NCBI GenBank assembly: GCA_003313425.1
Contig: NHZP01000120.1
Location: 1-48,898 of the forward strand
Length of the DNA stretch: 48,898 bases
Source: Pseudopyrenochaeta lycopersici
Taxonomy: Eukaryota > Ascomycota > Dothideomycetes > Pleosporales > Pseudopyrenochaetaceae
Reading direction: 5' to 3'
Shown: one piece after another, positions 1-35,760 of the stretch
Position numbering within the stretch: position 1 is the stretch's first letter
Layout: every line of letters begins with the position of its first letter
The notes under the pieces: model-generated
The model's input: the letters and a program-made list of their open reading frames with translations, nothing else
The model's database searches: none
What the model was told of the DNA's origin: nothing
Program-made: the position numbers and the translations under genes

Positions 1-519
1 TGCGATTAGGATTCTTTACAATTCTCCCATAGAGAACACCGGCTAGGACCGGCCCGATCCCCCGTGCTACAGCCAGTAGCGAGCTCTTACATAGCGGCAA
101 CACTGCAACCGCACCAGCCGCAGTAACCACTACATGGGCACGCATTACGCGTGAGGAAGATCCTTCATAACTTATCGATGTGTCTCCACCACAAGAGCGC
201 TGGTCTTTCATAAGCAGCCACTTCATTGTGCCACCGTCAGTGACAACACAGCTCACTGAAACACAGTGATGCAGAAGCACTACGTGATGTTCAGCATAGC
301 ATAGATGTACCATGTTCTACACTCACATTCCATGTGTGCTACAACAAATGCAAATGGGACCTCCATCCCATTACCACACCAGCGCTGACAACTGTCACGT
401 ATTTGCTCCAGCCACGCTCTTGCTCGGGCATCCACCCATAAGCGCAAATATCTCTTGCTCCACAACACCGCGACATCTCTCCAAGTCGCATTACTCAAAC
501 GTTCCACATCCCATTTCAT
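1..519 (-). CDS. U0: divergent segment-family protein, spliced, C-terminus cut by window edge
   Basis: Exon 1 is 327-519 (ATG at 519, 64 codons plus one base). A GTGAGT donor begins at 326. A TTTCAG acceptor ends at 256, so exon 2 would run from 255 to beyond position 1 with no stop. The intron is 71 nt and phase 1, the same phase as the family intron. After the junction the protein has a pattern like the family's (a Ser-Cys strand, DG, KWL) and then a hydrophobic stretch that aligns loosely with the family's FAxLS...LP region. Similarity is weak, so family membership is an inference. A TATA box lies 163 bases upstream of the ATG. Confidence 0.5.
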
Positions 520-663
520 AGGAGCCCGTTGGGCGAGGGTCCCAAAAGGGTACCCATAAAGGCCTTCGATGGTGCACTAGGAGCACATCCGTGAAAAGTG
601 TGCCACACAATATCCACCAGAATATTATGCGTATCCCAAGGGAATGTAAACACACTCCGTGCC

Positions 664-778
664 AACAGCAGAGACGCTGTTGTTATATATGTCCCCGTCT
701 TGCGCGCCGCCAAGAAATACCAGTCCCTAGTGGGCAGTATATACTGCCTAGTCCCCGTGTCTATGTTCATAGACCAAT
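664..778 (-). promoter_or_regulatory. U0 promoter
   Basis: On the minus strand a CCAAT box (plus 774-778) is followed by a TATATAA element (plus 683-690) and a leader hairpin AACAGC/GCTGTT (664-682). The rest of the stretch up to the origin at 971 holds the conserved dyads and no gene. Confidence 0.65.
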
Positions 779-970
779 CAGACTAACGTCCTGAAAAAGA
801 GTGGGCAAACCAAGGTCAAACGACCCGCACCGTCCGTGCTCTGGCTTACTTACAGGGGGCAGCGCCTCTAGTCTTATTCAAGACTAACCCTTCGGTACTC
901 GCTCCACTCACAGGCTCTGCTTAATTGTAAAGTGTCTAGGATCAGAAGCGCAAGGCTCCTGACCACTTGA

Positions 971-1024
971 CAACTTTCTAGTGAAAGGAATCATATATAG
1001 GCAGAACGCCACACTAGAAAGTTG
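971..1024. other. Origin stem-loop, start of U1
   Basis: Left arm CAACTTTCTAGTG pairs over 13 bp with CACTAGAAAGTTG. The loop contains GAAAGGAA/TCATATATA, the inferred segment joint, and a small GGC...GCC stem. Confidence 0.8.
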
Positions 1025-1389
1025 AGTCGGGGCCCGTGCCCAACACGAGCCACATCTCCATGTGACCTGGGATCGCCTCCAGCCACAACAAAATTGGACT
1101 TACGCATTTTTTATTTTTTTTTGATGTTCCATCACAGGCCTCACGCCCTTACCAATACAGCTCCACACAACAAATCCTTCGTTTTTCGGATGGCCCTACC
1201 ATTACAAAATCAGTAACTACACCTGATACTAATAACAATTAATCTATCAACGTACTTCACCACAACGTACTAAATACAGCTACTACACAAAAATGTATTT
1301 CTCATCATAACAAGAGTACATAATAACTACTACCTTAGTACACACCCATACATAGGAATAAAGACCAGAAGAACTTACTGGTACCCATC

Positions 1390-2174
1390 TTACCAACAAC
1401 TTCTGCAACTCAGCCATTGCACACGCAACGGATGTATTTCTCCTACCGCATCGCTAATCCCAGTAAACCAATCCGACTTTAACGACCGCTTTATACCGGT
1501 AAAAACAATTCGCCCAAACAAACCTGGACAAGGACTCATCACATACCAATGCGCAGGGCTCACACCTCCTGTGCAGCGTGCATGCGCAGTCTACACGCGT
1601 ACTATAATACCCAAAGCGCAGTTGATGGAACAATGCCTCCACAACTTCGACATCCGGCCTCTGCCCCGACGGCGTTGTGACAAGAGGTAAAATGCGCTCC
1701 ACGACCACATCCAGTGCCTCTACCGAAAGCTCCGCAAACACAACCTGGCTCCGCACTTGATCCCTAACCAACGTATCCACCTTGAGGACCAGGACCGGAC
1801 TGTACTCTACCGCCTCGTTCACAGAACTCCTTGAAGTCATCGAGACACACTGCGTGTTTAGGAGAAACGCATTCGCGAGGAAGCCACCCGCTCTCTTTTG
1901 TTAGCCATACGTCTAAGGCACCATCCGGCTTTAGATGGCAGGTGAAAGAAATCAGTCGCTCCACCAGCCCTGTAACTCCGTAAGTTTGGGGAAACCCAAC
2001 CAGAGGAGAGAGAAAACAGTACTTACTAGGAATGTGCCTCCGCACCTGTTCAATGTTTACAGCTGTCCCAGGGAAGGGGGAGCCCCTCTGACCCGGCCGA
2101 AGCTGGTCGACTGACAGTGATTTACTGTCACCTGTACCCTCCGCATTACTGCACTGTCCCAGGAGCGACCCCAT
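1390..2174 (-). pseudogene. U1: segment-family gene, frameshifted copy of U14
   Basis: This copy matches the intact U14 gene (21958-22740) base for base except for an extra G at 1797-1798 and an extra A in 1501-1505. Both change the reading frame, so the frame is broken within exon 2. Exon 1 (ATG at 2174), the GTAAGT donor and the acceptor are intact. Two more single-base indels fall outside the gene. Because all differences are single-base indels, three in runs of 3-7 bases, and no substitution is seen, they may be sequencing errors rather than true decay. The 365 bases between the origin and the stop hold only the 3' hairpin and AT-rich sequence. Confidence 0.75.
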
Positions 2175-2229
2175 CGCGTTATAAAAGAAGGGAATAAAAG
2201 AGAATGTTCAGTCCCTGCAAACATTCACA

Positions 2230-2350
2230 CTCCATGAACGGGGACATCCTCCCCTCTTATATACATCTCTGTCTTGCGCAATGCCAAAACACGCTAGTCC
2301 CTAGTCGGCAAAGGGCTGCTCACTCCATGACTCTATGTCCATACACCAAT
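2230..2350 (-). promoter_or_regulatory. U1 promoter
   Basis: Minus-strand CCAAT (2346-2350), the CTAGTCCCTAG dyad and TATATAAG (2258-2263) precede a GGGGACATCCTCCCC leader hairpin and the ATG at 2174. Confidence 0.75.
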
Positions 2351-2541
2351 CAGAAGCCTGATTGAAAGAAAATGCGGCAACCCAGCGTCATCTGACCCGC
2401 GACGTCCGTGCTCTGGCTTACTTAAGAGTGCAGTGCCCCTAGCCTACAAGTAGTCTAACACTTCGTTGTTCCCTCCAGTCACAGGCTCTGCTTACAGGTA
2501 AAGTGTCCAGGGTAACCAGCGCAAGGCTGGTGACCACTTGA

Positions 2542-2584
2542 CAACTTTCTAGTGAAAGGAATCATATATAGCACTCGAAAGTTG
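2542..2584. other. Origin stem-loop, start of U2 (short-arm type)
   Basis: The right arm is only GAAAGTTG, giving an 8-bp stem; the loop keeps GAAAGGAATCATATATA. Confidence 0.75.
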
Positions 2585-3059
2585 ATTTCTGGTCTGTGCG
2601 CGCAGAATCCGCGCCACACCACCCCCTGTCCGCTCATCGCGCCACGCTGTCCCAACGTGACTGTCAGCCACACGCCCTGTGGACTTAGCAAATTTTTTTT
2701 GGAAATTCCATCTGAAGGGCTCACACCCTTAACAACTGAGCTCCGCACCCAACATTCTTTGCTCTTCTTCCCGAATCTACAAACCTTACATCGTACCATT
2801 AGTAACTATTCTATAGTTTTTGGGTTATCCTTATTTTAATGAATTTGGAATACTGTAAATAAACAAAAAGTACTTACTATTACCAAATGTACTTTTTTTG
2901 GGTTACTACATCTTAACCTGTCTCTTACTAGATACGACTCTGATAGACCACGTCTTCTTATAACCATCTAGCTGTCCTATAGACATGACTGCTACTCCAT
3001 AACCTTATGGCTGTACTACTCCTACTGTGTTGCTGATCCTACTCAACTACATACGCTTC

Positions 3060-3747
3060 CTATTGAGATAAACTCTATCAAATCCATTGGAATGGGAAAA
3101 CCTCCCTGACGCGGGCCTTATGCGTCTGCAAGGCCTACAGAAACCGAACTCGTTACATCCGCAGTCTACACTGCTGAGGAGGTTTCTCTAGCAGTATATG
3201 GAGCATACTCCATCAAGCTCTACAGCGTCTGCCCTCTGCCCCGACGACAGAATGAGAAGGGGTAAAATACTCTGGCAAGACGATGTCTAATGCCTCTAGA
3301 GAGAGCTTCGCAAATACAACGAGACAAAGAGTCTCGCCCTAGTAGTTCGTATCTGCCTTGAATACAAGGAGCGACTGTTGCGTCCCTCCCTGTCTACAGA
3401 GTTCTCCGTAGCGGTGAAGACACTCCGTGTGTTTTCTGCGAAATGCATTCGCGGGGAGGCTGCCCGCTCTCTTTGGTTACCCACCAATGTCGTCTGCCTG
3501 GCAAATCTGCCTAGGTAGTTAGTGACACACGCCGCTCCACTAGGGCTACTACTCTATCAGTTACAGTACCCAACTGATTGCGTGTCAGAAGAGAAAGATA
3601 CTCACTGTGCACGTGATCTCTCAACGCTGTGGATGTCCCTACAGACACTGGGCAGCGACATCCTGCCTGTACCCCATCTACTATAGATAGGAGGGTGGTT
3701 GTGCAAGCGGACCCCGCAAAAGCACACTATCCAGTATGCGACCCCAT
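3060..3747 (-). pseudogene. U2: decayed segment-family gene
   Basis: The ATG at 3747 has the family's usual start context (M-G-S), but codon 7 is TAG where relatives have Gln (CAG). The rest of exon 1 stays open to a GTGAGT donor in the family position. Exon 2 shows the LVE start, then another stop, then the TKESG and QCIS-like motifs, then frameshifts through the FA-LS and LP-GQ regions. Several independent lesions make this a genuine relic rather than a read error. The left end (about 3060) is approximate. From the origin to here (2585-3059) there is only AT-rich sequence and the 3' hairpin. Confidence 0.7.
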
Positions 3748-3799
3748 CGCAAAGTAGAAATAAAAAAGGATCCCTCAAGGGACTGCCACACTCCGTAGA

Positions 3800-3912
3800 A
3801 ACAGATCCTCTGTTGTTCCTATATACCTCTCTCTCTTGAGCGCTGCCAAGAAATACTAGTCCCTAGTAAGCAATAGAATGCACATTCCATGACTCTATAG
3901 ACATAGACCAAT
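3800..3912 (-). promoter_or_regulatory. U2 promoter
   Basis: CCAAT at 3908-3912, TATATA at 3820-3825 and a CAGAtccTCTG leader hairpin just left of the TATA are intact although the gene is broken. Confidence 0.65.
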
Positions 3913-4123
3913 TAAATCATAGATTTAGCTGGAGTGGGGCCAAGAGTGTCTCCCACGTGCCCACAACAGTCAGATGACCCGCACAGTCCGTGCTTTTGTA
4001 GGCTTACAAGGGGCAGAGGCCCTAGCCTACAAGTAGTCTAACACTCCGCTTCTCGTTCCACTCGTGGCCACAGCTTAAGGTAAAGTTACATGGGTCAGAA
4101 GCGCAAGGCTCCTGACCACTTGA

Positions 4124-4176
4124 CAACTTTCTAGTGAAAGGAATCATATATAGGCTGCGCCACACTAGAAAAGTTG
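4124..4176. other. Origin stem-loop, start of U3
   Basis: Arms CAACTTTCTAGTG and CACTAGAAAAGTTG; the right arm has one extra A. The loop has the standard GAAAGGAATCATATATA. Confidence 0.75.
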
Positions 4177-4565
4177 AGTCGTGGCTGAAAAATTTTTCAG
4201 CACCCCCGGTAAAACGTGACCTCCAGCCACAGCAAAAATGGACTTACGCATTTTTCGAGAGGTTTGATGTTCCATCTGAAGGGCTCCCACCCTTACTGAC
4301 CGAGCTCCGCACTACAATTTCTTCATTGTTCTTACTACTATGCAGAATCTGTACAACATAATTAATTTGTGTTACAATATATACGGATTTTTTTTTTTTT
4401 TTTAAAAAAAGAAACAGGAAATAAAATACCTATACCATGAGACAGGTACTTACCATTCCAAGCTATACAACTTCGTATACATCGACTCAACACCTATATC
4501 TATAGGTATAAAGGACCACCCTCTTTAATTACAATAGAGTACTGCCACTCCATGAGCCACATAAA

Positions 4566-5359: not shown

Positions 5360-5416
5360 CGCAATATAGCAGTAGAACAAAAGAAAACACTACATAATGT
5401 AGGACACATCCGTGAA

Positions 5417-5530
5417 AACAGATCCTCTGTTGTTCTTATATAGACATGTCCATGCTATCTCTGCCAAGACACACTAGTCCCTAGCAGGCAGAGGGCAGCC
5501 CATTCCATGACTCTATATTCATAGTCCAAT
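5417..5530 (-). promoter_or_regulatory. U3 promoter
   Basis: CCAAT at 5526-5530, CTAGTCCCTAG dyad, TATATA at 5437-5442, then an AACAGAtccTCTGTT leader hairpin (5417-5431). Confidence 0.75.
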
Positions 5531-5721: not shown

Positions 5722-5763
5722 CAACTTTCTAGTGAAAGGAATCATATATACACTCGAAAGTTG
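5722..5763. other. Origin stem-loop, start of U4 (short-arm type)
   Basis: Left arm CAACTTTC pairs with GAAAGTTG; loop GAAAGGAATCATATATA. Confidence 0.75.
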
Positions 5764-9353: not shown

Positions 9354-10142
9354 TTACAAGCATAAACCATCAACATAACAATTAACTTCCTCGAGAAGAC
9401 GTGTAAGACGACACATCTCTAAAAAAATGGCCTCTAGCTCCGCAGTAAAAGATACCATCTGCCGATACTCTTGACGTTTCTTATCATCAACAGCGCTCCT
9501 CGTGCTCAACAACGTGTACCCGCCACTATCGTAACGTCGAAATCCCCCACGAACGGCCACTTCATAGCCAGACTGGTTTACGCCGACAGCCTCGAGTCCG
9601 GTGCCAAAACAACCGGCAGAAAAGGGAGCTCCACGACTCCATCGCTCGAGTTCATCGCGGAAAAACTCCTTCCGCACCTTGCCATGACACGGTACCCGCT
9701 CAATAGTAACATTCCACTCGCTCCGCTGCAGATGGAGACGTCGAGACGAATGCGCTACCCGAGTCCGCTGCGCAAACGACACCAACACTTCATACTCCGT
9801 ACAGGAACCTATCGGGGACACTCCATGAGAACCCACGGGTCTCACTGCGGCTACCAACCATGATGGCGCTTCCCAGCGCACCGTACGCCCACCGATACTA
9901 TTCAGAACACCTCCCAGTAGTTGAGCAAACTCAACCTCGCTAAGCGCGGCGGTGGGAACAGACGTCGAGTAACGCATACGCCCACTCTGAAGCCGGGTCT
10001 CCAATTGTCGCATCCTGACAACAACCCTACTCGGAATGCACACTGTGCAGACGCAGAGGACACGCCGACCACGGCGTACAATATGACTAGAACTGTACAG
10101 TCCATGAAGACCGCTCCGCTGCCCACTCTCTAACACTACCAT
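9354..10142 (-). CDS. U6: unrecognised 262-aa protein
   Basis: The frame is open without introns. ATG 10142 is the first ATG of the frame; upstream the frame runs into promoter sequence. The protein is not a member of the segment family. It has no signal peptide. Basic residues are scattered through the first 60 residues, followed by a mixed alpha/beta-like centre. A charged C-terminal part (AVDDKKRQEYRQM, then leucine-spaced residues) looks helical or coiled-coil. No catalytic motif of a rolling-circle initiator (HUH, Walker A) is seen. A structural or replication-accessory role cannot be told apart. Confidence 0.65.
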   Translation of the reverse strand: MVVLESGQRSGLHGLYSSSHIVRRGRRVLCVCTVCIPSRVVVRMRQLETRLQSGRMRYSTSVPTAALSEVEFAQLLGGVLNSIGGRTVRWEAPSWLVAAVRPVGSHGVSPIGSCTEYEVLVSFAQRTRVAHSSRRLHLQRSEWNVTIERVPCHGKVRKEFFRDELERWSRGAPFSAGCFGTGLEAVGVNQSGYEVAVRGGFRRYDSGGYTLLSTRSAVDDKKRQEYRQMVSFTAELEAIFLEMCRLTRLLEEVNCYVDGLCL

Positions 10143-18344: not shown

Positions 18345-18398
18345 CAACTTTCTAGTGAAAGGAATCATATATAGGCGGAACGCCACACTAGAAAGTTG
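18345..18398. other. Origin stem-loop, start of U12
   Basis: Full 13-bp arms; loop has GGCGGAACGCC in its right half. Confidence 0.8.
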
Positions 18399-18598
18399 AT
18401 TTCTGGCCTGTGCGCTCTCCGCGCCACACCCCCAGGTGACCCAACGTGCCCTCCAGCCACACATGAATTGGACTTACGCAATTTTTTTTCCAAAAATTTA
18501 AAATGATTTTCCAACACAATGTATATTCTATACCAATCCTAACTCCGTCTATCCCAAAACATAAAAAACTATACTAACTAAGTAAAACACAACCTGAT

Positions 18599-19660
18599 TC
18601 AGACACGGTAATACACCTTCGCAACAACAGCTTCCAATACACCTCCAACCCAGATCTGCCCTTTACCAGTACCATCGTCGTTTACAACAGAAGTAGGTGT
18701 TACCATAACCCACAACTGGAAGTGATTGTTATCAACGGGACGATTATCCTCCTCAATCTCAAACTTTAACGCTTCGTTGAGAGTCCAATGAGCTTTAATC
18801 CTCTGGACACAAGATGTCGCACCCGTCGAAGAGTGCGCACCGAACGCGGGCTGGGGTACACTGATATTTACAGTCGTACACCCCTTAGACTTAACATACC
18901 CAGGTTCACCCCTCTCGCCAATACTGTAGTCCACAGTACCAATAGGCCCACTAGTACCCTTCTTCGTGGAGCACTTAAAAATGGTCCCATCAGGAGAGTT
19001 AAGGGAGTGACTAAAGACAACCTTCCCCTCCATATCCACGCTCTCCCGCTTCGTATTCACTTCGTAGGGGCCGTCCGGGGTATCAAGCCCAGTCTCGTCA
19101 AGACGGTAAAGACGTTGTTGGTCCTGCTCTTTGCAGCCAATGAGAAAGTCACTCGGGACTCTATCCACCCCGGATTCAACACCGGCGAGATGACCTGGGT
19201 AACTGCGACACAGCACCGCGCTGAGCTCGAACCCAAAGGAATATGCGACCTTCAGATTGAGCGTGACACCTGTCACAACCACTTCTCGGCGTTTACGGTA
19301 CTTGTCCGACAAGTAAGGCGCTGCCAACATTGGGCCTTGCGGTGGGATCCCCATAGACACTGGCACCGCAAAATAACGCTGCTGATACTGCTCAGTGCTC
19401 GTCGGTGCGACGTAAAAAGGCCGCGCAGGGTACCCCGTCAGAACAACCGTCTGCTTCTGCCCTTGCTCCATTTCTTGGAGCTTCCGCTCCATACGAGCAA
19501 GCCGCGCTGTGCTAACGCCAGACCTCCGCACCTTCGGTCGAAAGGCCTTACTGTACTTCCTCGTACTCCGTCCCGAAGAACCAGGCTTCGCTTTGGCCGA
19601 ATAGCCTGAATAGCGCCCCTTCCGGCCATACCCATACTTACGTGATGTAGTGTAACCCAT
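18599..19660 (-). CDS. U12: putative capsid protein, 353 aa
   Basis: The ATG at 19660 is about 55 bases downstream of the TATA box, so it is preferred over the open frame that continues upstream through the promoter. Residues 1-55 are rich in Arg, Lys, Tyr, Gly and Ser (SRKYGYGRKGRYSGYS...), a DNA-binding arm typical of small ssDNA-virus capsid proteins. A short helix with ARMERKLQEME follows. Then comes a region with alternating hydrophobic residues (REVVVTGVTLNLKV; FELSAVLCRSY) as in jelly-roll strands, and a late HWTLNEALKFEIEEDNR ... HFQLWVMVTP block. Length fits the class. No intron. I infer capsid from this arrangement, not from a match. Identical in length and apparent sequence to U19. 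Confidence 0.65.
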   Translation of the reverse strand: MGYTTSRKYGYGRKGRYSGYSAKAKPGSSGRSTRKYSKAFRPKVRRSGVSTARLARMERKLQEMEQGQKQTVVLTGYPARPFYVAPTSTEQYQQRYFAVPVSMGIPPQGPMLAAPYLSDKYRKRREVVVTGVTLNLKVAYSFGFELSAVLCRSYPGHLAGVESGVDRVPSDFLIGCKEQDQQRLYRLDETGLDTPDGPYEVNTKRESVDMEGKVVFSHSLNSPDGTIFKCSTKKGTSGPIGTVDYSIGERGEPGYVKSKGCTTVNISVPQPAFGAHSSTGATSCVQRIKAHWTLNEALKFEIEEDNRPVDNNHFQLWVMVTPTSVVNDDGTGKGQIWVGGVLEAVVAKVYYRV

Positions 19661-19713
19661 ATTGCTCCACAAGCTGTCTGTCCAGACAGAAGAGGCGGGG
19701 GGAAGGACCCCTT

Positions 19714-19720
19714 TATATAT
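19714..19720 (-). promoter_or_regulatory. U12 TATA box; CCAAT block missing
   Basis: GGATATATAAAGG precedes the capsid ATG by about 55 bases. The CTAC-TCC-GTAG dyad is present, but the CCAAT box and the TCTATG/CATAGA dyad found in most other units are absent. This unit has the longest gene (1062 bp). Confidence 0.7.
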
Positions 19721-19951
19721 CCACCCATGTAGGACACAGAGTAATCTTTGCCAAGATACACTACTCCGTAGAAAGAGGCACACTGCCCACTCCATGTGTT
19801 CCCGCCTCCACGTGACAAAAAGGCTAGCGCTTACAGGGGGCAATGGCCCTAAACCCCAGGTGGTTTAACACTTCGTTGTTCGCTCCACTCACAGGCCCTG
19901 CTTACGTGTAAAGTGGCAAGGGTAACCAGCGCAAGGCTGGTGACCACTTGA

Positions 19952-19993
19952 CAACTTTCTAGTGAAAGGAATCATATATACACAAGAAAGTTG
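19952..19993. other. Origin stem-loop, start of U13 (short-arm type)
   Basis: Left arm CAACTTTCT pairs with AGAAAGTTG; the loop reads TCATATATACACA. Confidence 0.8.
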
Positions 19994-21345: not shown

Positions 21346-21538
21346 CACAGTACTGATTGAGAGAAAAGTGGGCAAGCAGTGATCATCTGACCCGCGACGT
21401 CCGTGCTCTGCTTTGCTTACAGGGGCTTTTGCCTCTAGCCTCTAAAGAGCCTAACCCTTCGGTACTCCCTCCAGTCGTGGCAACGCATACAATGTAAAGT
21501 GTCAGGGGTCAAGGAGCGCAAGGCTCCTGACCACTTGA

Positions 21539-21592
21539 CAACTTTCTAGTGAAAGGAATCATATATAGGCGGAACGCCACACTAGAAAGTTG
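21539..21592. other. Origin stem-loop, start of U14
   Basis: Full 13-bp arms; right half identical to the U1 origin. Confidence 0.8.
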
Positions 21593-21957
21593 AGTCGGGG
21601 CCCGTGCCCAACACGAGCCACATCTCCATGTGACCTGGGATCGCCTCCAGCCACAACAAAATTGGACTTACGCATTTTTTTATTTTTTTTTGATGTTCCA
21701 TCACAGGCCTCACGCCCTTACCAATACAGCTCCACACAACAAATCCTTCGTTTTTCGGATGGCCCTACCATTACAAAATCAGTAACTACACCTGATACTA
21801 ATAACAATTAATCTATCAACGTACTTCACCACAACGTACTAAATACAGCTACTACACAAAAATGTATTTCTCATCATAACAAGAGTACATAATAACTACT
21901 ACCTTAGTACACACCATACATAGGAATAAAGACCAGAAGAACTTACTGGTACCCATC

Positions 21958-23536: not shown

Positions 23537-24322
23537 CTATACACAACTCAGCCAGTCTTCGCCTTCCGGCTGAACTTCTCCAACAGCGTCACTGATCCCA
23601 GCGAACCAGTCAGACCTTCCGAATGGCCATACCTCATAAAATCTATCCAGCCAGTGAAACCTCGATGAAATCCGTTGCGCACACGCACAAGGCTGACAGA
23701 TCCTATCGAGAATACATGCGCAGTCCACCCGCGTACTGTAGTACCCTTCCTCTAAAACGTAGAACAATCTACGTACCGTAACAGAAGAAGCAACCGCAGC
23801 TTGCCCACTAGGCAATGCGATAAGCGGCAGTACCCGCTGCAGAAACACATCTAGTGTCTCCAGAGAGAGGTCCGCAAATGCAACGCGGCTCTGCACTACA
23901 CCCCTAACCAAGGTATCCACCTTGAAGACCAGGAGAGACTGCCGGATGGGACCCTGTGCACAGAGTTCCTTATGAGCGTTTAAACACTCCGCGTGCTTCT
24001 GAGAAATACACTGTCGAGGGAGCTGCCCGCTCTCCTTGGTCAACCACGCGGATTGTCTCCCCGACAAATCGAAATAGAGAGTAAGAGATACTCCACGCTC
24101 CACCAGCTCTACTACTCCGTCAGTTTGGGAATCCCCAACTACTTCCGTGTCTAGAAGACAAAGACACTGACTGTGCACGTGATCTCTCACGCGGTGCAGT
24201 TCCACAGCTGTCTCTACAGACAATGAACAGGAACTCCCTTCCTGTAACGCATCCACAAGGGATAAGAACGTTCTTGCAGCACTAGGACCCGCCATAGTGC
24301 CCTGTCCAGAGCGCGACTCCAT
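23537..24322 (-). CDS. U15: segment-family protein, 240 aa, one intron
   Basis: Exon 1 is 24172-24322 and exon 2 is 23537-24108. The 63-nt intron begins GTCAGT, as in U3 and U20, and ends AGTAG; it is open in frame. Start M-E-S-R-SGQG. Exon 2: LVERGVSLT, WLTKESG, PRQCISQKHAECL, LLVFKVD, FADLSLETLDVFLQRVLPLIALPSGQ, Cys cluster DCACILDRICQPC, WFAGISDAVG, WLSC. Closest to U20 in exon 1. Confidence 0.78.
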   Translation of the reverse strand: MESRSGQGTMAGPSAARTFLSLVDALQEGSSCSLSVETAVELHRVRDHVHSQCLCLLDTEVVGDSQTDGVVELVERGVSLTLYFDLSGRQSAWLTKESGQLPRQCISQKHAECLNAHKELCAQGPIRQSLLVFKVDTLVRGVVQSRVAFADLSLETLDVFLQRVLPLIALPSGQAAVASSVTVRRLFYVLEEGYYSTRVDCACILDRICQPCACAQRISSRFHWLDRFYEVWPFGRSDWFAGISDAVGEVQPEGEDWLSCV

Positions 24323-26261: not shown

Positions 26262-26314
26262 CAACTTTCTAGTGAAAGGAATCATATATAGGCTGCGCCA
26301 CACTAGAAAAGTTG
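26262..26314. other. Origin stem-loop, start of U17
   Basis: Right arm CACTAGAAAAGTTG has an extra A, as at the start of U3. Confidence 0.75.
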
Positions 26315-26705
26315 TCAGAGGGGCCTGTGCGCGACCCGCACCGCCACCCAAAAATGAACTTAGCATTTTTTTTTTCGAGAGATGGTGTTCCATCCCAAGG
26401 GCGCCCACACCCTTCCTGACCGAGCTCCGCCAAATAACCATTCCTCTTCGTGCGACGCACAACATAACACTTACTACGTATAAAATACACAACTCCTACT
26501 CAAAAGAAAAGTAACGAATAACCGCTTTTCTTTACAGCAGAAGAAAATAATGTACACATCATACTATTATAAATCATGAATGCTTACTATACTAGTATAC
26601 AATCCGTTACATAAAATGACCTGAATAGTAGGAACCCAACTGCGCACCCCATGCACACATCCGTGAAGCCAACTTACTAGCAGCAACAACGGTTACACCA
26701 AAAAA

Positions 26706-27347
26706 CTACACCTGCTTTACTACTTGCTCTAGAATAAAGGCATCGCAATTAGCAAATACACTACATTGAAACAGGATAATCGATCTTACCGTGTCTGCCC
26801 TACACGAAGTAGAACTACGAGACTCAAAGGCACCAAGCTTGAAAAGGCCAATCGCTAATTCAAACTCCGCCAAGTAAACACTGGCATCTACCAGTGCCTG
26901 TAAAGATTCCAGAAGACCGACAGCCGGCCGAAGCGCACCAGACGCACCAAGACTGTTCAGCGTCCCAGTAGTCTTCGACGTGACAGTAGTATCCGGCATC
27001 GCCACACGAGGGACCTCGACAACACCGCCGCCACTGGAACACTCTCGTGATGTGCGTCCACCAGTAGAATTCGCTTTAACTATGCCACTCCTAGTTCCCT
27101 GGAGTGCATCCCTCGAGGTCAAAACCAACTTATACGCTTCCATCGCCCCGCTCTCACAGGATCGACTGAATCCTCCGCCCTCACGTCCGTTCAGATCAAA
27201 GCCTACGACTTGAAAGGCCATTCCCTGACCCACTCTACGCCTCGGCACGCTGCACGTGATAACCGACCCATAGGGTGAACGCGGCTTCGCGCCCTGCTTC
27301 GCGCGCTTCGCTACCGAACGACCAACTATTCGCCGCGCCCGCGCCAT
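26706..27347 (-). CDS. U17: unrecognised protein with basic N-terminus, 213 aa
   Basis: The ATG at 27347 starts MARARRIVGRSVAKRAKQG, a strongly basic arm; the frame is also open 17 codons further upstream but without ATG. The remainder has a Ser/Thr/Gly-rich centre and a hydrophobic-helical C-terminal third (LLESLQALVDASVYLAEFELAIGLFKLG). Not a member of the segment family and without enzyme motifs. A basic arm plus mixed body would suit a DNA-binding or minor structural protein, but that is a guess. The leader is unusually long (about 235 bases from the TATA), so an upstream intron or exon is possible. Confidence 0.55.
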   Translation of the reverse strand: MARARRIVGRSVAKRAKQGAKPRSPYGSVITCSVPRRRVGQGMAFQVVGFDLNGREGGGFSRSCESGAMEAYKLVLTSRDALQGTRSGIVKANSTGGRTSRECSSGGGVVEVPRVAMPDTTVTSKTTGTLNSLGASGALRPAVGLLESLQALVDASVYLAEFELAIGLFKLGAFESRSSTSCRADTVRSIILFQCSVFANCDAFILEQVVKQV

Positions 27348-27582
27348 CTCTTTCCAAGAAGAACCAAACGGCCAACAGCCGATTCCCAAACGCGACACTG
27401 CGCTTTACAGAATGCTTCGCAACAAAGGACACCCCTTTGGATGGTTAGGGCGAGTACTCTGTATATCCACGTCCGTGAAACCACAACATAAATTGCGCCG
27501 ACTCCGTCTATGGCGGGGACAGCTCCACAGAGGAAAAAGGTAGTTATAAGATAACCACCCAGGAGAGCGGAGGGACCTCCCT

Positions 27583-27633
27583 TTATAGTTCCCACATAAC
27601 CGCACCTCCATGCATCTATATCCATAGACCAAT
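27583..27633 (-). promoter_or_regulatory. U17 promoter
   Basis: CCAAT at 27629-27633 and CTATAAAGG at 27583-27588. The CTAG dyad between them is missing, which shortens the promoter by about 40 bases. Confidence 0.65.
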
Positions 27634-27828
27634 CAAATCAGAAAACTGATCTACCAGAGCGGCACAGCAGCGTCATCTGACACGCCACGTCCGTGCTCTG
27701 CTTTGCTTACTAAGTGCATGGCCCCTAGTCTTATTCAAGACTACCGCTTCGCTACTCGTTCCACTCGCCGGCCCTGCTTAAGAGTAAAGTTGCAAGGGCT
27801 GGCAGCACGAGGCTGCCGACCACTTGCT

Positions 27829-27870
27829 CAACTTTCTAGTGAAAGGAATCATATATACACAAGAAAGTTG
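27829..27870. other. Origin stem-loop, start of U18
   Basis: The left arm is preceded by CACTTGCT instead of the usual CACTTGA, a U17-specific change. The right half matches U13 and U16. Confidence 0.8.
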
Positions 27871-28273
27871 ACAGAATGGGCCCGTGCCCATCACAACCCG
27901 TCTGTGCGCAGAACCCGCCACAGCTAACGTGACCCTGCGTGACTGTCAGCCACAGGGAAATTGGACTTAGCCAATTTTTTGAAGACTCGATGTTCCATCC
28001 TGAGGGCTCCCACCCTTACTAACCAAGCTCCGCCATACAAATTCTTTGTTACTCTTCCTACTGCCGTATAACCCCTACATTATAACGTTAGTATATATTA
28101 GACTAAATAGTAACTCAATTTTCAAGGAAAATAAATAAAATAAAAGACATATACAACACATACTTGCTATTCAAAAATCTACACCCATAACCATAGCTTT
28201 AAAGGCGCCACCGGTCCCTTACTAAGACATGACACTGACTGAATACGTCCTCCTATAACAACCTGCCTATTCT

Positions 28274-29058
28274 TCATAGCCGGCACGTTAACCACTGCTC
28301 TCCTTCCGGCTGCATTATCCCTACTGCATCACTGATCCTAATAAACCAATAAAGCTTTGACACCGGCCTTACAGAAGAAAATCCTTCTGAACGATTAAAC
28401 CGCCGTTTTTCATAAGACACTGACTCGCACTCTTTGCAACGCTTATCGAGCTTGCACCCGCAGTCCACGGAAGTTCCATAACACCCAAGGTCTAACCCGT
28501 AAAACACTGTAGTAACAACAGAGACATCCGCCGTCTTGCCGGAGGGCAATACGAGAAGAGGTAGGACGCGCTGCACAACCACCTCCAGTACCTCTACCGA
28601 GAGCTTCGCAAAAGTAACATGGCTCCGCACCACCCTATCCTGATGGAGCGCCTCCACCTTGAGGACCAGGAGCGACTGCCGGGTAACCCCCTCTGCACAC
28701 AGTTCCTTGTGGTACTGTAAACACTCCGTGTGCTTCTGAGAAACGCATTCGCGAGGAAGCCGTCCACTCTCTTTGGTCACCCACCAAGATTGTCTCCCCG
28801 ACAAATCCAAGGAGAGAGTGAGAGAAATACCGCGTTTCATGAATACTGCACTCATGTCAGATAGGCTCCCCTACTGCCATCGCCAACGACACAAAGAGAT
28901 CACCTACCCGGCACGTGACCCCTCACTACGTTAAACTCTGCCTCTGTCTCTACCGACACCGCGCAAGAAGATCCTTCTTGCAGCCCATCTATCGTCGATG
29001 GGAGGATAGGGGTGCCAGCGAAACCCGCCTCAGCCTCTTGCCCAGTGTGCGATGCCAT
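28274..29058 (-). CDS. U18: segment-family protein, 240 aa (copy 3 of the U13 segment)
   Basis: Exons 28908-29058 and 28274-28845, the U13 structure shifted by 7877 bases, with the same protein. Followed by the second capsid unit. Confidence 0.78.
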
Positions 29059-29107
29059 CGCAGTGTAGAAAAGATGAAACTACACAAAGTAGAACACTCC
29101 GTGCGCG

Positions 29108-29222
29108 GGGAGGGGGCTCCCCTCTTTTATATGTCGATGTCTATGCTGTCTTTGCCAAGAGACACTAGTCCCTAGCAGGCAATAATGTGCCCCTTCCATG
29201 CTGTCTACGTTCATAGACCAAT
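29108..29222 (-). promoter_or_regulatory. U18 promoter
   Basis: Same elements as U13: CCAAT 29218-29222, TATA 29128-29132, leader hairpin to the left. Confidence 0.75.
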
Positions 29223-29415
29223 CACAGTACTGATTGAGAGAAAAGTGGGCAAGCAGTGATCATCTGACCCGCGACGTCCGTGCTCTGCTTTGCTTACAGG
29301 GGCTTTTGCCTCTAGCCTCTAAAGAGCCTAACCCTTCGGTACTCCCTCCAGTCGTGGCAACGCATACAATGTAAAGTGTCAGGGGTCAAGGAGCGCAAGG
29401 CTCCTGACCACTTGA

Positions 29416-29469
29416 CAACTTTCTAGTGAAAGGAATCATATATAGGCGGAACGCCACACTAGAAAGTTG
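29416..29469. other. Origin stem-loop, start of U19
   Basis: Full 13-bp arms; right half the same as at U12. Confidence 0.8.
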
Positions 29470-29669
29470 ATTTCTGGCCTGTGCGCTCTCCGCGCCACAC
29501 CCCCAGGTGACCCAACGTGCCCTCCAGCCACACATGAATTGGACTTACGCAATTTTTTTTCCAAAAATTTAAAATGATTTTCCAACACAATGTATATTCT
29601 ATACCAATCCTAACTCCGTCTATCCCAAAACATAAAAAACTATACTAACTAAGTAAAACACAACCTGAT

Positions 29670-30731
29670 TCAGACACGGTAATACACCTTCGCAACAACA
29701 GCTTCCAATACACCTCCAACCCAGATCTGCCCTTTACCAGTACCATCGTCGTTTACAACAGAAGTAGGTGTTACCATAACCCACAACTGGAAGTGATTGT
29801 TATCAACGGGACGATTATCCTCCTCAATCTCAAACTTTAACGCTTCGTTGAGAGTCCAATGAGCTTTAATCCTCTGGACACAAGATGTCGCACCCGTCGA
29901 AGAGTGCGCACCGAACGCGGGCTGGGGTACACTGATATTTACAGTCGTACACCCCTTAGACTTAACATACCCAGGTTCACCCCTCTCGCCAATACTGTAG
30001 TCCACAGTACCAATAGGCCCACTAGTACCCTTCTTCGTGGAGCACTTAAAAATGGTCCCATCAGGAGAGTTAAGGGAGTGACTAAAGACAACCTTCCCCT
30101 CCATATCCACGCTCTCCCGCTTCGTATTCACTTCGTAGGGGCCGTCCGGGGTATCAAGCCCAGTCTCGTCAAGACGGTAAAGACGTTGTTGGTCCTGCTC
30201 TTTGCAGCCAATGAGAAAGTCACTCGGGACTCTATCCACCCCGGATTCAACACCGGCGAGATGACCTGGGTAACTGCGACACAGCACCGCGCTGAGCTCG
30301 AACCCAAAGGAATATGCGACCTTCAGATTGAGCGTGACACCTGTCACAACCACTTCTCGGCGTTTACGGTACTTGTCCGACAAGTAAGGCGCTGCCAACA
30401 TTGGGCCTTGCGGTGGGATCCCCATAGACACTGGCACCGCAAAATAACGCTGCTGATACTGCTCAGTGCTCGTCGGTGCGACGTAAAAAGGCCGCGCAGG
30501 GTACCCCGTCAGAACAACCGTCTGCTTCTGCCCTTGCTCCATTTCTTGGAGCTTCCGCTCCATACGAGCAAGCCGCGCTGTGCTAACGCCAGACCTCCGC
30601 ACCTTCGGTCGAAAGGCCTTACTGTACTTCCTCGTACTCCGTCCCGAAGAACCAGGCTTCGCTTTGGCCGAATAGCCTGAATAGCGCCCCTTCCGGCCAT
30701 ACCCATACTTACGTGATGTAGTGTAACCCAT
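29670..30731 (-). CDS. U19: putative capsid protein, 353 aa (second copy of U12)
   Basis: Same frame, start and protein as 18599-19660, shifted by 11071 bases; both units are 1607 bp. The duplication covers exactly one origin-to-origin unit. U12 is preceded by U11 and U19 by U18, so it is not part of a larger duplicated block. Confidence 0.65.
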   Translation of the reverse strand: MGYTTSRKYGYGRKGRYSGYSAKAKPGSSGRSTRKYSKAFRPKVRRSGVSTARLARMERKLQEMEQGQKQTVVLTGYPARPFYVAPTSTEQYQQRYFAVPVSMGIPPQGPMLAAPYLSDKYRKRREVVVTGVTLNLKVAYSFGFELSAVLCRSYPGHLAGVESGVDRVPSDFLIGCKEQDQQRLYRLDETGLDTPDGPYEVNTKRESVDMEGKVVFSHSLNSPDGTIFKCSTKKGTSGPIGTVDYSIGERGEPGYVKSKGCTTVNISVPQPAFGAHSSTGATSCVQRIKAHWTLNEALKFEIEEDNRPVDNNHFQLWVMVTPTSVVNDDGTGKGQIWVGGVLEAVVAKVYYRV

Positions 30732-30784
30732 ATTGCTCCACAAGCTGTCTGTCCAGACAGAAGAGGCGGGGGGAAGGACCCCTT

Positions 30785-30791
30785 TATATAT
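30785..30791 (-). promoter_or_regulatory. U19 TATA box; CCAAT block missing
   Basis: Same GGATATATAAAGG element and same absence of the CCAAT block as U12. Confidence 0.7.
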
Positions 30792-31022
30792 CCACCCATG
30801 TAGGACACAGAGTAATCTTTGCCAAGATACACTACTCCGTAGAAAGAGGCACACTGCCCACTCCATGTGTTCCCGCCTCCACGTGACAAAAAGGCTAGCG
30901 CTTACAGGGGGCAATGGCCCTAAACCCCAGGTGGTTTAACACTTCGTTGTTCGCTCCACTCACAGGCCCTGCTTACGTGTAAAGTGGCAAGGGTAACCAG
31001 CGCAAGGCTGGTGACCACTTGA

Positions 31023-31076
31023 CAACTTTCTAGTGAAAGGAATCATATATAGGCAAAACGCCACACTAGAAAGTTG
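31023..31076. other. Origin stem-loop, start of U20
   Basis: Full 13-bp arms around GAAAGGAATCATATATAGGC. Confidence 0.8.
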
Positions 31077-31449
31077 AGGGAGGGTCTGTGCGCGAAATCC
31101 GCGCCACACCCAGCTGACCCAACGTGCCCTCCAGCCACAACAAAATTGGACATAGCCAATTTTTGAGAGATGGTGTTCCATCCTGAGGGCTCCCACCCTT
31201 ACTGACTGACCTCCGCCATACAAATTCTTTACTACTCATACTACTGTAGTTAGCACAGATTCATACAGTATACAATGACTTTATTTTAACAAAAAATAAA
31301 AAAATTCGATACACAATCGTTACTTACAATTACCAAATATACCCAAACAAATTATCTCCATAAATATGCTAGGCACCCATCTCCTACTGAGATATATTAT
31401 TACCATTACATGGACACAGGGACTAGGTAATCTTACCATCACGATATTC

Positions 31450-32241
31450 TTACCAAGAACGAGTGCAACTCAACCAGTTCCTGCCAGACGGTAGTACTGC
31501 TCCCACAGCGTCACTGATCCCAGTAAACCAGTAACACTTCCCGAATGGCCTTACCCCAGAAAACCCATTCAAACGAAGAAACCTCGATGAAATCCGGTGC
31601 GCACACACACAAGGCTGACAGATTCTGTACAAAGTACACGCGCAATCCACCCGCGTACTATAGTACCCAATGCTTAAAAACTGCATTAGTCCCTCCATGC
31701 TTACAGCATCTACAACTTGCCCACCAGGCAATCTAATTCTAGGCAGTACCCGCTGTACGACAACATCCAGTGTCTCTAGGGAGAGCTTCGCAAATATAAC
31801 ACGGCTCCGCACCACGCCATTCCAACTCGTATCCACCTTGAGGACAAGAAGCGCCTGCTGGGTACCCCCCGAGGCACTGAGTTCCTGGTAATCCTCAAAA
31901 CACTCCATGCGTTGTTGTTCGGTACATTGACGGGGAAGGCGTCCGCTCTCCTTGGTAATCGACCAAGCTTGTCTTCCCGACGCATCAACATACGCCATGA
32001 GAGAGACATGCTGCTCCACCAGCACTGTGATGACGTTAGTTGGGCATCGGCCAACCTATCGTGTGTCTAGGGGAAAAGAAAAACACTGACTGTGCACGTG
32101 ATCTCTCACGCGTTGCAGTTCCACAGCTGTCTCTACAGACAATGAACAGGAACTCCCTTCCTGTAACTGACGCACAATAGATAAGAAGCTTATGGTAGCA
32201 CTGGCTCCCGCCATAGTGCCCTGTCCAGAGCGCGACTCCAT
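31450..32241 (-). CDS. U20: segment-family protein, 241 aa, one intron
   Basis: Exon 1 is 32091-32241 and exon 2 is 31450-32024. The 66-nt intron begins GTCAGT and ends CACAG, phase 1. Start M-E-S-R-SGQG, nearly the same exon 1 as U15. Exon 2: LVEQHVSLM, WSITKESG, PRQCTEQQRMECFE, LLVLKVD, FAKLSLETLDVVVQRVLPRIRLPGGQ, Cys cluster DCACTLYRICQPC, WFTGISDAVG, WLSC. Confidence 0.78.
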
Positions 32242-32284
32242 CGCATGTGTAGTAAAAAAACTACATATTGTAAAACATATCCAT

Positions 32285-32398
32285 GAACACAGATCCTCTG
32301 TTGTTATTATATACCTCTATCTATGGCACCGCCAAGAGAAACTACTACATAGCAGGCAGTGTTGTGCCCCTTCCATGAATCTATATCCATAGACCAAT
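32285..32398 (-). promoter_or_regulatory. U20 promoter
   Basis: CCAAT at 32394-32398, dyad CTACTACATAG, TATATA at 32308-32313, CAGAtccTCTG leader hairpin. Confidence 0.7.
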
Positions 32399-32592
32399 CA
32401 AATCTTAGATTTAACAAATGTGGCAACCCACAGATCAGATGATCTCGCGCTACGTCCGTGCTTCGGCTTGCTTACTAAGTGCAGAGGCCCTAAACCCCAA
32501 GTGGTTTAACACTTCGTTACTCCCTCCAGTCATGGGCTCCGCTTACGTGTAAAGTGACAAGGGTAAGGAGCGCAAGGCTCCTGACCACTTGA

Positions 32593-32646
32593 CAACTTTC
32601 TAGTGAAAGGAATCATATAAGGGCGAAACGCCACACTAGAAAGTTG
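32593..32646. other. Origin stem-loop, start of U21 (variant loop)
   Basis: Arms are the full 13 bp, but the loop reads TCATATAAGGGCGAAACGCC instead of TCATATATAGGC.... Confidence 0.75.
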
Positions 32647-33282
32647 ACGTGGCTGAAAAATTTTTCAGCACCCCGGTAAAACGTGACCTCCAGCCACAAC
32701 AAAATCGGACATAGCCAATTTCTGAGAGATGGTTTTCCATCTTCAGGGCTCCCACCCTTACTGACTGACCTCCGCCATACAAATTCTTCGTTGCTTTTCC
32801 TAACGCAACACGTTACTACACATATATATAGAGAAAATATTTTATAGTTAAAAAAAAAAAAAAAAAATAATCCTAGTCTATTCTACATAAACAATATACA
32901 TAGTAAGAGTATTTTTACAGAATACTACTACTAAACAATAGTTCTAGGTATCCGATACCTACATAACTACATTAAAACACAGTCCCTATGATAGAAGTAT
33001 AGGCCCATTGCCTACCTACATAAGTCATGAACACATTCAAGTACTCTACTACAATACTCCATAAACCTAGTCCCCAAATATGCACCTACCATACATAAGA
33101 AAAAGTGTACACACTAACAATAGATAAAGACACACTTACGTGACTACAAAACATGTCTTCATAAGCCCTTATCGAGATAGGCCATCACGATACTCGCAAC
33201 ACGCTCCACACCTTGCGCACAGGGACAAACCACTCCATACGTTATCAGCCCTATGTCTACTCCGCACATCCATACGGAACAA
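32647..33282. other. U21 3' non-coding region
   Basis: No gene is supported. It holds the 3' hairpin, an uninterrupted A tract at about 32850-32867 and AT-rich sequence with AATAAA-like motifs on the minus strand. This longer spacer offsets the very short gene and keeps the unit at 1576 bp. Confidence 0.5.
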
Positions 33283-33745
33283 TCAACTACGTAACGTAAA
33301 CGGTACACTCGTTTGCTTTGTAACCAACGTAGCCCGTGGAGCTCTACCAAGCGCTACCTCTAGTGACACCAAGAGAGACATGGCAGCGGTGACGCGGCTG
33401 TCACCATCTTCTCTCGCAATAATCTCCCATTGATCCTCCCCGTCTCGCGTGTACACATGTACTAAACACGCTTCCCAGCAACTTTGCTTATCGTCGGTAA
33501 TCCAAGTGACCTCCCACTCGCCCGACATGGGCATATACAACAGTGAAGCGACGCCTACACGCCGCAACATTAGTAACCACCCTGCAAACAGTTCCACACA
33601 CTCCGCAATACACGGAGAGATTACACATACTGATCGCCTGATCGGCAATAGTGCGAGCCTCACGCACATCAGACAACATCATGTTGATAACAACAGAGCA
33701 CGATAAAAGCTCCGCTACCCAAAGCAACGCCGTGGCATGCTCCAT
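33283..33745 (-). CDS. U21: short, divergent segment-family protein, up to 128 aa
   Basis: Exon 1 is 33631-33745 and exon 2 is 33283-33554. The 76-nt intron has donor GTATGT, a TTACTAATG branch-like site and acceptor GTGTAG; phase 1 as in the family. Exon 2 opens with VASLL...MSGEWEVTWITDDKQ, which aligns with the family's VSLT...SGRQSWWVTKES. The protein then shows LVHVYTRDGE (LLVLKVD position) and LLVSLEVALGR, and stops before the Cys cluster. The start is uncertain: a TATA-like element lies at 33909-33912, and 33682 is the next in-frame ATG after 33745. Confidence 0.5.
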
Positions 33746-33908
33746 TTATAGGCAGTCCTGCCAACAGCACTCCATGCTCAAGCGACGCCCGCACCTAAGC
33801 TTAGCGTACGGTAGGAACGGCCACTCCAAGAGGCCTACCAAAGGGACTGCGGCAGTACCCAACTGATACCCTCCGGGACAACTACCGCAGAGCATCCACT
33901 ACAGTCTC

Positions 33909-33945
33909 TATACCAAGACTATTATTCCATAATGCGCCCACTCCG
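33909..33945 (-). promoter_or_regulatory. U21 weak promoter
   Basis: GGTATAGAG (33909-33912 core) sits where TATATAA is found elsewhere. The dyad is ATTATTCCATAAT in place of CTAGTCCCTAG, and the CCAAT box is absent. Confidence 0.45.
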
Positions 33946-34168
33946 TTGTGTCCATAACTATGAACATCTGGTCCGTGTGAGGGCAGGGGTGCTCCTCACG
34001 TGCAACCTGAGGTCAGATGACCCGCGACGTCCGTGCTTCGGCTTGCTTAGCTAGTGCTTATGCCGTAGTCTTTAAAAAGCCTAACGCGTCCGCTTCTCGT
34101 TCCACTCGTTGGCAAAGCTTACAGGTAAAGTGTCCAGGGTAACCAGCGCAAGGCTGGTGACCACTTGA

Positions 34169-34222
34169 CAACTTTCTAGTGAAAGGAATCATATATAGGC
34201 GGTTCGCCACACTAGAAAGTTG
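34169..34222. other. Origin stem-loop, start of U22
   Basis: Full 13-bp arms around GAAAGGAATCATATATAGGC. Confidence 0.8.
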
Positions 34223-34484
34223 AGTCGGGGTCTGTGCGCACGATCTGCGCCACAGCCAACGTGACTCTGCATGGCCTCCAGCCACTGTGAAATTGGACTT
34301 AGCCAATTTTTTTGAAGGTTCGATGTTCCATTAACCACCCTACGCTAATGTCAGCCTTCGCTTCCCAGAATATTGCACAGTACTATGCCGTACCACAGCC
34401 ATGCATACCTTAACAACAGAATTCTACTACCGCACGTACTAATGCTACAAATCAACCATTCTTCCATGGTCTATCCAACAAAAC

Positions 34485-35380
34485 TCAATCATTCCTAAAT
34501 ATAGTCATCCATAGTAACTCATCTACAGAACAATTACTAAGTGCACCGTCAATAGACAAAGTAGACGATAACGCAATATGCGGACATGTGAGCCAGTCAA
34601 GCGCCAACGGTTGTACAATTCCAACCGCATCACTGTACCCAGGAAACCAGCCGTCTGGACCACATGGGAATGGCCCACTGAACATGTCCCATCTCGTGAA
34701 ACGTTGCCGATTAAAACGCAACGACAAACAGGACAGACAATGCTCTCGCAATGTGCACCCGCACCCCACGCTACTGGAAAATCCGCCTACGTCTAGCAAA
34801 CCAAACAGCGTATCCACGTCCTCCGCCTGCACAAGATCCCTATCACGTGTATACACACAAGGCAGCACGCTTTTGATGAATACATCAAATGTATCGGAAC
34901 AGAGCTTCGCGAACACAACCATGCTCCGCACTTGATTGTATTCTCCTACAACATCTGCTCTCCAGACAAGAAATGCAGTCAGGGCATTGTCGGCAGACGC
35001 ACAATTTCCAAAATAGCACCCACACACATTGGGCGCAGAACACTGGCGAGGAGCCTGCCCGCTCTCCCGAGTGAGCCATACGTCTAAGGCGCCATCCGGC
35101 TTTAGATGAAACGTAAAAGAGATGCCTTGCTCCACCAACTCTGCTACTCCGTTAGTTGGGGGACCTCCGCCCAACTACTAAAACATCTACAAAAAGAGAA
35201 CATACTGTCTATGTGCGCCCGCACACAATGTAAGCTAGATGCACTCGCTGCAATAGCTTCCCCTCGAATTCCTTCTACAAGGCAGTCGATCCCCGACAAA
35301 ACACGCTCCAGCTGTACGCTAGAAACACTTCCATCATGCTCCGTAGAGATGTGCACTCTGGGTGACGACGCCATCGTCAT
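34485..35380 (-). CDS. U22: segment-family protein, 276 aa, one intron
   Basis: Exon 1 is 35206-35380 (a second ATG at 35374 matches the family start M-A-S-S). Exon 2 is 34485-35140. The 65-nt intron runs GTATGT to TAGCAG, phase 1. Exon 2: LVEQGISFT, WLTRESG, PRQCSAPNVCGC, FLVWRAD, FAKLCSDTFDVFIKSVLPCV, Cys cluster GCGCTLREHCLSC, WFPGYSDAVG, WLTC, then a 33-residue extension not seen in relatives. Its KPDGALDVWLT segment matches U14 closely, suggesting recombination or gene conversion between segments. Confidence 0.75.
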
Positions 35381-35409
35381 TTGGAGTAAACCAAAAACAT
35401 CACTTCCAT

Positions 35410-35530
35410 GGGCGGGGGAGGCCCTCCCCTGCTTATATACCGTGATATCCACGCTGTCTTCGCCAAGAGTTACTAGTCCCTAGTTAGCAGAGGGCTGCCC
35501 ATTCCATGTTGTCTACATTCATAGACCAAT
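35410..35530 (-). promoter_or_regulatory. U22 promoter
   Basis: CCAAT at 35526-35530, CTAGTCCCTAG dyad, TATATAAG at 35434-35439, leader hairpin GGGGGAGGCCCTCCCC to its left. Confidence 0.75.
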
Positions 35531-35724
35531 CAGACAACTGATTGAAAAAAAAAGTGGGCAAGCAGCGATCCGATGATCAGCACGCGCCCGTGCTCTGCTA
35601 TGCTTAGTAAGTGCATTGCCTCTAGTCTTATTCAAGACTAACACTTCGTTGTTCCCTCCAGTCACAGGCTCTGCTTACAGGTAAAGTGTCCAGGGTAGGC
35701 AGCGCGAGGCTGCCGACCACTTGA

Positions 35725-35760
35725 CAACTTTCTAGTGAAAGGAACCCTAACCCTAACCCC
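35725..35760. other. Half origin joined to telomere repeats
   Basis: The left arm CAACTTTCTAGTG and GAAAGGAA (to 35744) are as in every other origin. The right half of the loop and the right arm are replaced by CCCTAACCCTAACCC (35745-35759). In the minus direction the chromosome's G-rich strand (TTAGGG)n runs straight into TTCCTTTCACTAG. Because both sides have TT at the joint, the exact break is uncertain by up to 2 bases. Confidence 0.85.

Follow-up and report, generated by a model that had tools for sequence, protein, structure and literature searches.

What kind of element forms a long head-to-tail array of equally sized units, and how do such units come to lie against telomere repeats? 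This question is raised by contig NHZP01000120.1 of the fungus Pseudopyrenochaeta lycopersici (here C120, positions 1-48898; the whole stretch analysed, hereafter the window), which belongs to a 62.7-Mb genome in 188 contigs. A first-pass annotation had proposed a multipartite single-stranded DNA (ssDNA) virus with at least 19 segment types. Our analysis indicates that the array probably consists of single-gene segments of a multipartite fungal ssDNA virus of the CRESS (circular, Rep-encoding single-stranded DNA) type, which were likely joined serially to the telomere by the viral Rep. The joining to telomeres, overlooked in the first-pass annotation, is the most surprising part of the finding.

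The window contains 23 origins and 19 segment types

An exact 25-mer is present 22 times in the window, from 961 to 35715, and 23 origins are obtained when one mismatch is permitted. Unit borders were placed after ...GTGAAAGGAA, which lies within the loop that a conserved inverted repeat encloses, and types were assigned by sequence similarity of the units. Cutting of 991-35744 at the origins reproduced the 22 complete units of 1556-1607 bp described previously, and the reported number of 19 segment types was likewise recovered by similarity, with 18 types among the complete units and one in a partial unit. A gap of 3154 bp had at first been read as a single unit because the origin flank near 27821 is variant. 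Types occurring repeatedly in the window are U1=U14, U12=U19 and U13=U16=U18.

991-35744, genes on the minus strand: 22 complete head-to-tail units of 18 types, 1556-1607 bp each, from origin-to-origin cutting and similarity typing
1-990, minus strand: partial outermost unit of a 19th type, ending at the contig end, from origin cutting and similarity typing
26282-29435, minus strand: two units (26282-27848 and 27849-29435); the origin flank near 27821 varies
21538-21595, no strand assigned: example origin, a 13-base inverted repeat (CAACTTTCTAGTG / CACTAGAAAGTTG) flanking the loop in which the nick is presumed to occur; the array contains 22 further origins

The hairpin is conserved in 21 of 21 aligned origins of the window, and all four origins tested fold into it; for the example origin above, the z score is -5.9 on one strand and -5.1 on the other. 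We regard this stem-loop as a putative rolling-circle replication origin of the CRESS type.

Units of one length and many types recur throughout the genome

A 22-base origin pattern, searched with up to two mismatches, matched 893 times in the genome, while the reversed pattern serving as control matched 0 times; recurrence of the origin is therefore not a product of chance. Unit-by-unit reading covered eight arrays, namely the array of the window and those at the contig ends of C4, C5, C10, C18 and C54 and at both ends of C23. This provided 109 units, from which 7 incomplete outer units were excluded. The remaining 102 complete units represent 60 types. Mean unit length across these types is 1577 +/- 9 bp, corresponding to a coefficient of variation (CV) of 0.6%, whereas the longest open reading frame (ORF) on the gene strand varies from 81 to 421 amino acids (aa; CV 32%) and correlates with unit length at r = 0.10. 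Thus, the earlier statement that unit length is uniform despite variable gene length extends to all 60 types, and this uniformity suggests packaging. The additional proposal that every unit possesses its own promoter and a single minus-strand gene is borne out in part: CCAAT is present within the last 350 nt in 56 of the 60 types, but TATATA within the last 450 nt in just 31, and in three types the longest gene-strand ORF does not exceed 100 aa.

Members of one type are nearly uniform in sequence. The 61 same-type pairs include 41 without any difference and 57 with at least 99.5% identity, and the minimum is 98.17%; between types (one member per type) the highest identity is 89.6%, the second highest 76.0% and the median 52.6%. 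As the lowest value within types lies well above the highest between types, typing is nearly independent of the threshold. The numbers of types seen once to five times (32, 18, 7, 2 and 1) are matched by the expectation for 87 equally common types (31.7, 18.6, 7.2, 2.1 and 0.5), while 70 or 120 types fit poorly, and the Chao1 estimator yields 86 types. We estimate that the genome contains about 85-90 kinds of units at roughly equal frequency. Full copies of the genes for Rep (9) and the capsid candidate (8), both described below, per 893 origins roughly fit about 100 equally common types.

The order of the units was assessed through their neighbours. No common neighbour exists in 59 of the 61 same-type pairs and a single one in the remaining two; shuffled unit orders gave a mean of 1.2 neighbour-sharing pairs, with two or more in 46% of the shuffles. 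Where they could be typed, the neighbours of six Rep and six capsid candidate loci are all different (Rep, 3 left and 2 right; capsid candidate, 4 left and 4 right).

On C61, matches to array units on the plus strand extend from about 1 kb to 296 kb, i.e. along almost 300 kb, with Rep copies on the opposite strand, as expected. C61 represents either one very long array or several joined arrays.

One intact Rep type is encoded outside the window

None of the unit types in the window encodes Rep. Reading of ORFs revealed an intact 392-aa Rep ORF at C23:1005353-1006925, which carries the motifs HYH, YCFK, GPSRLGKT and VTCN. We take these to be the motifs of CRESS Reps (HUH endonuclease plus helicase). 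In Pfam, the protein itself produces weak matches to geminivirus Rep domains below the cut-offs, its relatives produce stronger ones (in 8, 6 and 5 of 15 sequences), and a profile built from Rep and its relatives matches six Rep sequences in PDB with a best E of 4e-6. Of 14 such relatives, 7 reside on contigs of 1.2-1.6 kb; those with names come from Pyrenophora tritici-repentis, P. seminiperda and Colletotrichum sojae. By these comparisons the 392-aa protein is related to geminivirus-type Reps and is a predicted Rep. The relatives in Pyrenophora and Colletotrichum point to a fungal host, as does a match to OrsD in the window that stays below its cut-off. A search of the genome with Viral_Rep (PF02407) returned 0 matches and was uninformative, as control genomes also returned 0. 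A Helitron was ruled out, given a Rep of 392 aa with geminivirus-type domains and Pfam matches that include no Helitron family.

Nine full copies of Rep are present in the genome, and their protein sequences are identical. Apart from this single intact type there is one diverged partial frame: a second Rep-like stretch shares 46% identity with Rep along about 120 residues, lies in 226-aa frames and is found at C92:44965-45330, C119:20485-20850 and C131:25421-25786. Hence, several segments, one origin and one Rep are found together here, with 60 types carrying the same origin and one intact Rep type. The common origin and size of the units, together with the intact Rep segment in a like array, lend strong support to the prediction from sequence that they form a multipartite CRESS-type replicon of 19 or more segment types. 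We claim class membership at the level "CRESS-type" only.

U12 encodes a capsid candidate

18599-19660, minus strand: capsid candidate of 353 aa with a basic N-terminus, in unit 18365-19971
29670-30731, minus strand: identical second copy of the capsid candidate, in unit 29436-31042

The U12 protein has a net charge of +15 over its first 50 residues, the highest among 46 proteins compared, and is strand-rich; the eight full copies in the genome encode identical proteins. Foldseek, queried with a poor structure model, returned a best E of 4.9e-3 and a TM score of 0.22; 16 of the 50 listed matches were named capsid, three of these from RNA viruses. On this weak evidence the U12 protein is likely the capsid. 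The proposal of a multipartite ssDNA virus fared unevenly: it was right in kind, as the origin common to all units, their even length and the intact Rep type elsewhere in the genome argue for it, whereas the capsid fold is left with a poor model and weak Foldseek matches, and at least 19 segments was too small a number.

Units are joined to telomere repeats at exact positions

35745-35759, no strand assigned: array base, where the origin loop meets telomere repeats CCCTAACCCTAACCC
35760-39800, no strand assigned: G-poor subtelomere directly inside the telomere seed, about 4 kb, followed by ordinary sequence

In 8 of 8 arrays the array base falls on one and the same nucleotide of the origin loop and reads ...AAAGGAA, telomere repeats (CCCTAA; the seed), host DNA. 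At C5 the base seed is a single repeat, after which ordinary sequence follows. Inverted origins do not occur in the eight arrays; all units share one orientation. Of 101 joints between units, 98 are direct and three contain whole telomere repeats (1, 1 and 4). At the outer end of C18 telomere repeats meet the first base of the unit exactly, whereas at C5 and C54 they are joined inside a unit; at C120, C4, C10 and both ends of C23 the array stops mid-unit at the contig end.

Genome-wide, a joint pattern open to any phase yielded 63 rows, which correspond to 41 distinct origin-to-telomere joints when counted by hand, 40 of them in one phase. Joints from telomere to unit number 19 in the genome; 17 are exact and that of C50 is exact after a degenerate repeat. 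Moreover, twelve seeds lie between exact unit ends and consist of 2, 2, 3, 3, 3, 3, 3, 4, 4, 4, 4 and 5 whole repeats, a count that leaves aside five further joints of one repeat.

Inside the seed, the CCCTAA strand is nearly devoid of G: the first kb contains 0.0% G at C23 left and at C10, compared to 1.3-10.6% in the window. Subtelomeric GC skew falls to -1.0; G-poor ends are those of C120, C23 (both), C10, C4 and C18, and the feature was not seen at C5 and C54.

A model for the joining of segments to telomeres

Where two units meet, the gene strand has the sequence ...TATGATT^CC. At base joints ...GGGTT is followed by CC and at outer joints ...GATT by AGGG, both consistent with a cut after TT. 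In the model that we propose, the segments would form a pool of circles in roughly equimolar amounts. Rep would cut their gene strand approximately at TATGATT^CC, remaining on the 5' CC. The single-stranded 3' end of the telomere (...GGGTT) would resemble the 3' end of a cut origin, and owing to this similarity Rep would join the segment to the telomere. The new 3' end of the segment (...GATT) would then be extended by telomerase or receive the next segment, and repetition of these steps would build the arrays. Such a process would account for the single orientation, the exact joints, the phase, the random order of units and the seeds of whole repeats.

A more far-reaching and tentative picture, for which the balance tips slightly the other way, is that of a virus of about 87-100 segments archived at telomeres. 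Rep might weld random segments, telomerase might cap them, and Rep might later free units as circles by cutting neighbouring origins; the virus would thus be inherited via host chromosome ends and would also rebuild them.

Alternative explanations

Several observations weigh against serial joining of viral segments by Rep. The units are known here as chromosomal copies, so that circles and virions are predicted forms, and cutting and joining by Rep is a prediction from its sequence; scans of IMG/VR with Rep, a closer Rep alignment and two origin patterns found no relative. The U12 structure model has a pLDDT (predicted local distance difference test) of 35.6, and searches with the protein found no sequence relative at E <= 0.001. 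The U1 copy is broken and two more Rep copies are interrupted. As for the joints, the base of C4 contains one extra C, the outer joint of C131 is in another phase, and two T common to telomere and unit leave the cut site ambiguous by two bases. Finally, a run of units is common to C120 and two places in C61, and the seeds of C81 and C119 have the same flanks and may go back to one event. Part of array growth is therefore copying between ends.

The weak capsid evidence would suit a capsid-less, CRESS-derived transposon family confined to telomeres, in which addition depends on Rep, no virions are formed, the "capsid" is some other basic protein and equal size reflects a limit of replication. 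Geminivirus-like transposons are indeed described for the fungus Tuber melanosporum in the part of the source available (PMC3198968). We nevertheless consider this explanation unlikely, as it is opposed by a CV of 0.6% in unit length compared to 32% in gene length, a basic, strand-rich protein identical in 8 copies, the location of half of the Rep relatives (7/14) on contigs of 1.2-1.6 kb, and the many accessory types. The common runs in C120 and C61 and the like flanks in C81 and C119 could also be read as the outcome of few ancient telomere joinings, followed by spread and reshuffling of arrays through recombination between chromosome ends, with no active segment pool. The near-complete lack of common neighbours (59/61 same-type pairs), the 12 whole-repeat seeds with exact unit ends on both sides, and copies that are mostly identical alongside an intact Rep make this account highly improbable.

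That the array is an ordinary satellite or an artefact of assembly has scarcely any credibility in our view. A tandem arrangement of equally long units at the ends of contigs does resemble a satellite, and the draft assembly comprises 188 contigs, but between-type identity has its top value at 89.6%, its next at 76.0% and its median at 52.6%, the genes are intact with nonsynonymous divergence below synonymous divergence (dN < dS), and the same joints are found at many places. The satellite array, which the first-pass annotation itself had named as the alternative, fails on the low identity between types and the intact genes. Taken together, we favour serial, Rep-mediated joining of the segments of a multipartite virus to telomeres.

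Other genes of the array and the remainder of the window

23537-24322, minus strand: paralogue of the largest family, 261 aa
21958-22740, minus strand: paralogue of the largest family, 260 aa
12470-13246, minus strand: paralogue of the largest family, 258 aa
26706-27347, minus strand: basic protein of 213 aa, candidate gene
9354-10142, minus strand: 262-aa member of a second, small family (3 types)

By single linkage, 36 of the 60 types contain at least one ORF of the main family, which is characterized by conserved cysteines. For 29 ORFs chosen by motif (including t21, possibly a chance pick, which was retained), 103 of 406 pairs have dS <1.5 and a median dN/dS of 0.37, and the proportion of nonsynonymous differences is below that of synonymous ones (pN < pS) in 406 of 406. 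These ratios indicate that the family is under purifying selection. No relative of the main family emerged from protein searches at E <= 0.001, and its structure model is poor (pLDDT 45.4). In the stretch inspected, words resembling intron donors occur in 12 of 35 members. Comparison of four proteins with PHROGs gave nothing below E 0.2, and Pfam scans of array proteins (10 from the window area in one scan and 6 in another) detected no reverse transcriptase.

Beyond the array, a coding-like tandem repeat of 165 bp is present in 5.5 copies at 39903-40809. Three ORFs of 971, 311 and 189 aa occupy the minus strand at 44330-48723; only the 189-aa ORF has a Pfam match, which is to OrsD and below the cut-off.

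Comparison with known systems

In the Nanoviridae of plants, each segment carries one gene and a common stem-loop region, Rep acts on all segments, and the genome comprises at most about 8 segments, each roughly 1 kb long. The array shares the plan of one gene per segment plus stem-loop, while the segments of Nanoviridae are fewer and shorter, and we know of no telomere arrays in this family. Polydnaviruses, found in wasps, have many circular segments, expanded gene families and chromosomal copies, as does the array, but their circles are large double-stranded DNA; telomere addition is, to our knowledge, not known from them.

The segment number of multipartite ssDNA viruses is thought to be limited, since the host must gather all segments. 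If true, about 87 roughly equally common segments would test this limit, and telomere storage would offer an answer, with each nucleus inheriting a random library of segments. The arrays would likewise exemplify the stepwise addition of DNA to telomeres by a viral Rep, a history whose sequence of events the telomere seeds would record. The dominance of a single family (36/60 types) raises the question why one gene family spans so many segments.

A search of the literature in PubMed Central, outside of which subscription papers and preprints fall, retrieved neither telomeric CRESS arrays nor any CRESS virus exceeding 8 segments. Comparisons with the following reports refer to the portions of each that were accessible. 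Terminons and telomere-attached retroelements resemble the array in their head-to-tail arrangement at telomeres, short stretches of telomeric repeats and attachment to the G-rich end; however, they are reverse-transcriptase elements of up to 40 kb, which attach via complementary telomeric repeats and not via a rolling-circle origin (PMC6431247). The geminivirus-like transposons of Tuber have in common with the array a Rep-like gene of CRESS origin that is amplified in a fungal genome, but combine Rep with a transposase, and the accessible text mentions neither segments nor telomeres (PMC3198968).

The array is more similar in plan to multipartite mycoviruses. BcssDV1 is described as having four single-gene segments of 1669-1707 nt with common regions, encoding Rep, capsid and unknown proteins, and a stem-loop origin whose nonanucleotide is written TACTCTT^CA; the same source gives 8 segments for the nanovirus FBNSV (PMC10731770). 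Equal-size single-gene segments and common regions are thus shared with the array, and TACTCTT^CA is similar in form to TATGATT^CC. By description, BcssDV1 differs in having 4 segments compared to at least 60 here, and telomere joints are not mentioned in the portion consulted. Fusarium graminearum gemytripvirus 1 (FgGMTV1) is likewise a mycovirus with a multipartite genome of circular ssDNA that is divided into Rep, capsid and accessory segments, but has three segments, and its accessible description does not mention telomere joints (PMC11708013). As far as these descriptions extend, the array and both viruses follow the same plan of Rep, capsid (here a candidate) and accessory segments, and differ in segment number and in the telomere habit.

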